Shown one piece after another: positions 4,889 through 5,992 of a stretch of DNA of 5,992 bases. The position numbers were made by a program, and so were the translations under genes. Within the stretch, counting starts at the first letter, position 1. Each line of letters opens with the position of its first letter. This DNA is from JAWOFN01 sp046497505 [NCBI: bacterium] (GTDB taxonomy: Bacteria > Blakebacterota > Blakebacteria > Blakebacterales). Below the pieces are notes generated by a model. That model saw only the letters and a program-made list of their open reading frames with translations, made no database searches and was not told the origin of the DNA. The stretch spans positions 1 through 5,992 of the forward strand of contig JAWOFN010000036.1 of assembly GCA_046497505.1 (NCBI GenBank). The letters run 5' to 3'.

Positions 4889-5380
4889 CTATCCTCTCCG
4901 GTCCTCCTCTTCCTCCCCTTCCCCCCCTGTCTCCTCCTCCCCTGGAGGGCGGGCGAAGGGGTCCTTCGCCTTCTTCTTCTGGAAGTCCTTGAGCTGCGAT
5001 TCCAGGTCGGCGAACTTCTTCTTCTGCTTCTCCTGGAAGTCCCCGCTCGCCAGTTCCGACTCCAGGGCCTCCTGTTTCCCCCGGGCCTTCTTGAGGAACG
5101 CCTCCACCTCCCCCTTCATCGCGGCTCCCTTCTCCTCCCGCGGCAGCTCCTCCAGGGCCAGGTGGTCCTTGACCTCCACCCGGGTGTCGAAGGGGGTCTT
5201 CAAGATCTTCACGATCCCGGCGCTCTCCAGGGAGCGTGCCATGGCCCCCACCACCTCGTGGCTGATACCCAGCAGCTCACCGATCTCCTCGTAGGTGGGG
5301 GGCTTGGCCAGCCGGTGCTCCAGCACGCGGACCGCGGCCACCATCAGATGTCCCTGACTGTAGGAGGGTGTGTGTTCCAT
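4889..5380 (-). CDS. Winged-helix DNA-binding protein with coiled coil and acidic tail, family not recognised
   Basis: I do not recognise this 163-residue protein as a named family. Residues 8-75 read as a winged helix-turn-helix: an N-terminal helix (GHLMVAAVRVLEHRL), a helix-turn-helix pair with PPTYEEIGELLGIS (27-40) and HEVVGAMARSLESAGI (41-56), then a wing-like segment (VKILKTPFDTRVEVKDHLAL), as in MarR-like regulators. Residues about 80-138 are strongly charged and helical (EVEAFLKKARGKQEALESEL, then FADLESQLKDFQKKK) and probably form a coiled coil. The end is acidic and disordered (EEETGGEGEEEED). The ATG at 5380 is supported by GTGAGG about five bases upstream. No transmembrane segment or ligand site is visible. 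It lies upstream of the antiporter operon in the same direction but is separated from it by a hairpin and a promoter, so it is probably its own unit. A regulatory role is inferred from the domain only. Confidence 0.85.
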   Translation of the reverse strand: MEHTPSYSQGHLMVAAVRVLEHRLAKPPTYEEIGELLGISHEVVGAMARSLESAGIVKILKTPFDTRVEVKDHLALEELPREEKGAAMKGEVEAFLKKARGKQEALESELASGDFQEKQKKKFADLESQLKDFQKKKAKDPFARPPGEEETGGEGEEEEDRRG

Positions 5381-5481: not shown

Positions 5482-5484
5482 ATT

Positions 5485-5517
5485 GACATAGGCAGGCCCT
5501 CGCGGGCTGTCCCTGTC
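5485..5517 (-). ncRNA. Group II intron domain VI with candidate branch-point adenosine
   Basis: After domain V the minus strand forms a second hairpin: GACA (5517-5514) pairs with TGTC (5488-5485), GG pairs with CC, CAG (5509-5507) with CTG (5495-5493), and CCC with GGG around a GCGA tetraloop (5503-5500). A single A at 5489 is left unpaired on the 3' side, seven bases from the proposed intron end at 5482, which is the spacing expected for a branch point. Many IIC introns lack a good branch-point A and splice by hydrolysis, so the presence of this one is suggestive only. Confidence 0.7.
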
Positions 5518-5519
5518 AC

Positions 5520-5551
5520 ACCACCGTGCGTACGGGTCCGTACACGGCGGT
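5520..5551 (-). ncRNA. Group II intron domain V (catalytic hairpin)
   Basis: This hairpin is the catalytic core of the ribozyme. The lower stem pairs ACCGCCGTG (5551-5543) with CACGGTGGT (5528-5520), with a single G-U wobble at the middle base of the CGC catalytic triad (5549-5547). A two-base bulge (CG, 5530-5529) lies on the 3' side, then a 4-bp upper stem TACG/CGTA (5542-5539 with 5534-5531) closed by a GACC loop. The wobble and the two-base bulge are the defining features of domain V, and the CGC triad (AGC in IIA and IIB introns) points to class IIC. The loop is not a GNRA tetraloop, which may weaken docking to domain I. The flanking GAACCGCC...GGTGGTGTGA form is common in IIC introns. 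Confidence 0.88.
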
Positions 5552-5772
5552 TCAGCCGGTTGAGCGGGCAGTATACAAGCTATACAGCCCGAGCGTAGCG
5601 AAGAAGGCGTTGGGCAAGGCGAAGCTGAGGGCCGGGCTGCGGCTGAGGTGCCAGTAGACTTTGGGCGAACCGGCGTCTGCGCCGCCAGGTCGGTCCCTCC
5701 AGACGGGGCCCTCGGGGCTTCACCCCTACCCTCCCCGTCGAAGGCCAGTTCCAACTGGCTTTTCTGCCGCAC
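5552..5772 (-). pseudogene. Remnant of group II intron reverse transcriptase/maturase (large internal deletion and frameshift)
   Basis: Two scraps of an intron-encoded protein remain. The first begins at a GTG at 5772 and reads VRQKSQLELAFDGEGRGEAP followed by RAPSGGTD, which is typical of the N-terminal leader of IIC intron proteins. The second, in another frame from about 5670, reads VYWHLSRSPALSFALPNAFF then ATLGLYSLYTARSTG and a TGA at 5554-5552, which is the typical C-terminal end (G-x-W-x-L-S-R-S/T-P-x-L...ALPNA). The TGA overlaps the start of domain V, as is normal. Everything between is missing: the RT palm with YADD, the thumb and most of domain X, about 1.1 kb judged from usual full-length proteins of about 400-450 residues. 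The junction lies roughly at 5660-5710. No functional protein is possible. Confidence 0.82.
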
Positions 5773-5992
5773 TCCGTCGTCGAGTCGCACGTCCTCGTTC
5801 CCTCCAACCGTTCGGGCCTTCGTCCGGCCGCTTAGGTCGTGTGAGCCCCGGCCGTTTCTCCCCTCTCGGGCGAGTGTCCCGCTCAAGCGGACCGGCTGCA
5901 TCCGGACTACTATGCCCTCTGCTGACTCCTGCCGTGCGGTCAGGGTACCTCCCGGTACCCTCAGTCCCACCGGGGACACACAGCAGGCCTCC

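Follow-up and report, generated by a model that had tools for sequence, protein, structure and literature searches.

A group IIC-type intron with its maturase gene apparently deleted down to its two ends, and gene-less relatives in other genomes

Genes of the window and visible part of the intron

The stretch of DNA under study (the window, 5,992 nucleotides) carries between positions 2 and 4690, on the minus strand, a multi-subunit Na+/H+ antiporter-type operon, two genes of which are matched by the Pfam models MnhE and MbhE. Its best named relative is a contig titled Ilumatobacter, with 61-84% identity over pieces of the operon; a contig titled Aminicenantes reaches 42-69%. The MnhD-like gene shares 72% identity with the Ilumatobacter-titled contig, whereas no other genome of that phylum exceeded 50% when 119 genomes were searched; thus, the Ilumatobacter-titled contig may be transferred or misbinned. 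Between the operon and the intron lies a 163-codon gene with a helix-turn-helix match (Pfam HTH_Crp_2, E 4e-5, 23.9 bits, under the cut-off of 27), which found no counterpart in eight genomes or among the loci L001-L020. The end of the window harbors the 3' part of a gene-less intron. The features are the following:

5482..5992, minus strand: 3' portion of the gene-less group IIC-type intron (Rfam, alignment to complete introns, 5' ends of the relatives)
5815..5963, minus strand: last part of domain I through the first part of domain IV (RF01998, 46.8 bits)
5907-5927, minus strand: core motif AGTCAGCAGAGGGCATAGTAG (motif position)
5692..5772, minus strand: maturase leader remnant VRQKSQLELAFDGEGRGEAPRAPSGGT, 27 codons from GTG (translation, alignment to complete relatives)
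5688..5697, minus strand: deletion junction GGGACCGACC (comparison with G433, the nearest complete relative)
5552..5691, minus strand: maturase C-terminal remnant of about 46 codons, i.e., DLAAQT, a 1-base loss, AGSPKVYWHLSRS...TARSTG and a stop (alignment)
5517..5553, minus strand: domain V (Rfam; sequence identity to complete introns)
5482..5516, minus strand: domain VI and 3' end ..CCTATGTCAAT (RF00029 alignment)
4889..5380, minus strand: gene of 163 codons, located past the 3' end of the intron (weak similarity to a Crp-like helix-turn-helix)

Read along the minus strand, the visible intron runs from the end of domain I through domain III into a shrunken domain IV and then into intact domains V and VI. 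The 3' end of the intron corresponds to position 5482 and its 5' end falls past the window edge; since in the relatives the 5' end lies about 327-330 bases ahead of the core motif, about 262 bases of domain I should be located outside the edge. In the Rfam scan, group-II-D1D4-1 was found at 5963-5815 (46.8 bits, gathering threshold 35) and Intron_gpII, covering domains V and VI, at 5552-5482 (38.4 bits, E 5e-5), i.e., 1.6 bits below its gathering threshold of 40; complete relatives scanned with the same model (RF00029) score 39.5-41.2 bits. The 37 bases of domain V are identical in the complete introns of G266, G373, G433 and L038. The branch A is presumably at 5489, as judged by position only. 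The nearest relatives end in ..CCTATGTCGAT and the window intron in ..CCTATGTCAAT, the quoted class C boundary being CCUACYCGAU.

The core motif and domain V are separated by 353 bases with no reverse transcriptase (RT), compared with 1306-1517 bases in complete relatives. An RT gene inside this same copy, which would speak against the original prediction, does not occur in the visible part: the list of open reading frames contains none of RT size between 5482 and 5992.

As for the state of the visible ribozyme, 8 of the 27 pairs compared with G433 between the end of domain I and domain III differ in both partners, and no pair is broken; in domains V and VI, 2 of 19 pairs differ in this way, again with none broken. 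Compared with G373, 1 of 31 pairs is broken. Because the fold underlying these counts was itself derived from the sequences compared, and many of the differences may be older than the deletion, the counts speak for an intact visible part and not for later selection.

Remnants of the maturase gene and the deletion junction

Both the leader and the C-terminal remnant align with the maturases of complete relatives, and about 1.1-1.2 kb of the maturase gene is absent between them. At the start of the leader, the window has GAC in place of the ATG of the nearest complete relative, with an in-frame GTG downstream. The motif DLAAQT (5691-5674) is in the same frame as the leader; past it, a separate loss of one base shifts the frame to AGSPKVYWHLSRSPALSFALPNAFFATLGLYSLYTARSTG, whose stop is at 5554-5552. 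The two ends had been described as lying in different frames, which is correct for the portion beyond DLAAQT but not for DLAAQT itself.

A blastn search against the complete intron of the Burkholderia vietnamiensis plasmid pBVIE01 (L038) yielded two pieces, i.e., query positions 1-86 (E 2e-7) and 303-502 (E 5e-20), which are 1303 bases apart in the plasmid intron and 217 in the window. A chance resemblance to group II introns was considered as well and is ruled out by the E-values of both Rfam and blastn.

In G433, 1159 bases separate GGGACCGAAC, close to the N-terminus, from GGGACGAAC, close to the C-terminus, and the short repeat GGGAC(C)GAAC sits at both breakpoints. This repeat, together with the junction GGGACCGACC, suggests that the deletion is likely to have arisen between short direct repeats, G433 being the nearest relative rather than a known parent.

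Thus, the Rfam domain matches and the two-piece match to complete introns indicate that the original observation was real, and the alignment of the remnants with complete maturases supports the view that a group IIC-type intron lost its maturase gene except for the two ends. That the RNA domains on both sides were preserved likewise agrees, as far as they are visible, with the RF01998 and RF00029 matches.

Gene-less relatives, their origins and the supply of maturase

Relatives were sought mainly in the phylum of G002 (whose locus L002 is titled Candidatus Aminicenantes). The window intron matched 24 of 199 genomes of this phylum and a gene-less intron of G266, used as the query, 41 of 396, the two draws overlapping. 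Seven gene-less introns were recovered from six genomes (G266 C2, G266 C70, G296, G359, G392, G416 C58 and G610), in which the core motif lies 220-285 bases from domain V with no intervening RT. Fourteen introns with an RT from the same phylum have 1306-1517 bases in this interval (G433, G266, G282, G373, G377, G416 C29, G410, G339, G475, G538, G449, G440, G273 and G467); the maturases of G282 and G373 are identical, and those of G475 and G339, matched by the maturase query in two pieces, may be interrupted. The ratio of gene-less to complete introns is biased and gives no estimate of frequency, because the queries were gene-less and the wide searches scored two to three candidates per genome; loci showing one intron end only were counted in neither class. 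Many contigs start a few tens of bases ahead of domain V (e.g., G282 C170/C222, G837 C6/C8 and G952 C59/C72), suggesting that assemblies break in multicopy introns, thus hiding copies from the counts. Since seven such relatives turned up in 6 of the 396 genomes sampled from a single phylum, the earlier statement that ORF-less derivatives are uncommon for IIC is true only in a loose sense.

A 5' end of GTGTGCC or GTGCGCC is seen in six of these seven introns, the one of G359 being cut by a contig end; the assignment of the relatives to class C is based on this 5' consensus and on the hairpin sites rather than on a tree of intron-encoded proteins (IEPs). The 45-mers upstream of those six introns all fold as a hairpin, which clearly exceeds the shuffled sequences in G266 C2 (z -3.6), G392 (z -5.0) and G416 (z -4.7) and does not in G610 (z -1.7), G296 (z -1.5) and G266 C70 (z 0.3). 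Among the seven sites of relatives that were folded in total, 3 of 7 hairpins clearly exceed shuffles (z -3.6 to -5.0), the rest ranging from -1.7 to 0.3. RF02001, which models domain I, gave a match in every one of the seven gene-less relatives but G296, which has lost part of domain I.

Elsewhere, 45 of 297 genomes of the G003 phylum were matched, and none of the 25 loci kept had a core motif near domain V without an RT. In the order of G001, 3 of 148 genomes gave matches of 22-31 bases only. Phages gave one short match, and 161 plasmid records were matched, none spanning 80% of the query; the spaced patterns for short introns in viral contigs, the leader pattern and the junction pattern returned nothing. 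Two further loci can be mentioned: L134 (G708 C258, another phylum) retains maturase residues 37-83 with domain V 88 bases on, a different partial ORF deletion, and L039 (Cupriavidus sp. P-10 plasmid pMTS2) is a IIC-type intron, apparently 5'-truncated, with RT sequence and no annotated RT gene over the match.

A phylogenetic tree was constructed on 26 introns, eight of them gene-less, leaving out the gene region. A single origin of all gene-less copies is rejected (p-AU 0.00036). Seven changes are needed, at least six of them forced by starred branches, on a tree in which the window row fills 44% of the kept columns and the base make-up of G610 is odd. Three pairs are supported, i.e., the window with G433 (95/93), G359 with G475 (100/100) and G392 with G440 (96/91); by simple identity over short regions, G266 and G373 are as close to the window as G433 or closer. 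The gene-less introns of G266 and G296 share one deletion, with no gaps across 220 bases, the same junction and the same in-frame TGA, and a 40-base piece of a palindromic-looking domain I insert occurs in G266 C70 and G296 and not in G266 C2 (L080, L081). This suggests that a gene-less lineage predates the split of these copies; the loss in domain I of G296 came later than the shared gene-less ancestor.

Concerning selection on gene-less RNA, the G266/G296 pair is 86% identical in the core, 86% in the ORF remnant and 94% in domains V and VI. Over a wider region compared with G373, the gene-less G610 has 24 of 111 pairs changed on both sides and 5 broken, and the complete G377 has 23 of 110 changed and 2 broken; over a narrower 3' region in another alignment, 7 of 30 pairs of G610 are broken. 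Given the equal 86% in core and ORF remnant and the broken pairs of G610, such selection is not demonstrated.

In G266, the gene-less form has multiplied. One copy of 642 bases is located at C2:146052-146693 and another on C70, their last 486 bases being 100% identical and C70 carrying extra domain I pieces. Contigs C64 and C76 start at the same base of the gene-less intron, are 99% identical and then run into different flanks, and C41 closes with a 5' part that matches the gene-less form at 99%, perhaps half of the C64 or C76 copy. Hence, this genome has no fewer than four gene-less 3' ends, each with its own flank (C2, C70, C64 and C76). At L079 (G266 C2:146052-148558), the gene-less intron is directly followed by a full-length sibling, whose maturase is open across 457 codons. 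At the tandem joint, the initial GTG of this sibling is missing, which casts doubt on whether this copy can splice. We infer that the full-length copy is the driver of the gene-less ones; mobilisation in trans is likely in G266 and no more than plausible for the window intron.

When the G266 maturase was used as the query, G416 yielded an open relative (53%). In G359 the query matched two fragments, one of 46% where a contig ends and a short one of 70%; G610 gave RTs of 28-34% only, G296 a 29% match besides its own remnant, and the G392 assembly no match. A close open maturase is therefore absent from the assemblies of G296, G392 and G610 and only partial in G359, i.e., in four of the six genomes with gene-less introns. 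G416 has one gene-less copy and a 100-base piece, and G392 a single gene-less copy. Proliferation is seen in one of six genomes, its absence from the others being limited by incomplete assemblies.

Origin of the window intron and comparison with known systems

The explanation that we regard as probable is that a single internal deletion took out the maturase/RT gene, with short direct repeats as its probable endpoints, and that small changes followed, i.e., the 1-base frameshift and the loss of the ATG. If domain I is complete, the intron would splice and move only with a maturase provided in trans by a full-length relative. In favor of this explanation are the Rfam domains, the two-piece match, the grouping with the complete intron G433 in the tree, the base pairs kept relative to G433, the repeat at the breakpoints, the seven gene-less relatives, the copies of G266 and the precedent of Thermosynechococcus elongatus. 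Against it stand the broken pair relative to G373, the four genomes in which a close open maturase is absent or partial, and the equal 86% identity of core and ORF remnant in the G266/G296 pair.

The loss of the start codon and the shifted frame might also be expected of a dead fossil, in which the deletion was fatal, domain I is maybe damaged and the remaining sequence is eroding between genes, ahead of the 163-codon gene. This is a sizeable possibility that falls somewhat short of probable: the gene-less relative G296 is clearly short of part of domain I, and truncated copies represent the majority of bacterial group II introns according to the accessible part of PMC4028801; however, domain V is exact, no pair of the visible core is broken relative to G433, and the loss of the ORF is harmless to a ribozyme aided in trans. 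The position of the junction inside a short repeat could, moreover, reflect two parts of a full-length intron fused across that repeat during assembly, and assemblies do break in multicopy introns, as in the G266 contigs C64 and C76 starting at the same intron base. Such an artefact appears quite improbable, since the additional frameshift and the lost ATG suit an old, real deletion and the independent gene-less intron G392 likewise keeps both ORF ends. As to a new role of the domain IV remnant, e.g., as a short peptide or a regulatory RNA, a 173-codon frame is open from a GTG at 5979 to 5458, across the leader and the junction; yet Pfam gives nothing for this frame up to E 1, and the frame crosses domains V and VI and differs from that of the maturase in its second half, which makes the idea very hard to credit.

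The window intron might, moreover, be one of a set of miniature IIC introns made recurrently by short-repeat deletions and spreading behind hairpins on the maturase of a full-length sibling, a bacterial counterpart of non-autonomous retroelements; as a whole, this can be offered only as a tentative and rather doubtful proposal.

Class C (IIC) introns lie after terminators, according to the accessible parts of PMC4028801 and PMC4424553, and the window's relatives, which follow hairpins, begin with GTGTGCC/GTGCGCC, the class C 5' consensus being GUNYGCCNRGCAUGG (PMC4028801). The domain V type and the maturase remnants of the window also agree with these sources; the differences are that the maturase gene is gone and that the 3' end is ..CCTATGTCAAT instead of the CCUACYCGAU quoted. 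In the part available of a bacterial survey, 888 of 13,041 introns are without an IEP, and its criterion (domains I-IV at most 1,300 bases from domain V, without an RT) also describes the visible part of the window intron (PMC8919778). Gene-less group II introns are portrayed as rare in bacteria and nearly always near related introns that could help them, in the accessible text of PMC4424553, and six phage introns are reported as ORF-less in that of PMC12350094. The titles and abstract openings returned by a literature search describe no multi-copy gene-less IIC intron, which is no proof of absence. ORF-less group II introns are already known from Thermosynechococcus; that introns of the IIC type lost the maturase several times over, in separate events, is modestly surprising. 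Gene-less IIC-type introns that arose repeatedly and independently, and in one case multiplied beside a full-length copy, offer a natural setting in which to study the way a ribozyme becomes dependent on a protein encoded elsewhere, a proposed step toward spliceosomal introns.

The ORF-less TeI3 introns of Thermosynechococcus elongatus belong to structural class IIB, unlike the IIC type of the window. According to the accessible part of PMC2882425, they number 17 copies derived from one deletion and their mobility was tested. Like the window intron, they have a deletion in domain IV (about 1.5 kb in TeI3) leaving N- and C-terminal ORF remnants, and a 1-base change breaks the frame of the remnant; related full-length introns provide the protein in trans (same source). 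Thus, the two systems resemble each other in the way in which the ORF was lost, and differ in that the mobility of TeI3 was tested, whereas the window intron is known from its sequence, with one truncated copy visible.
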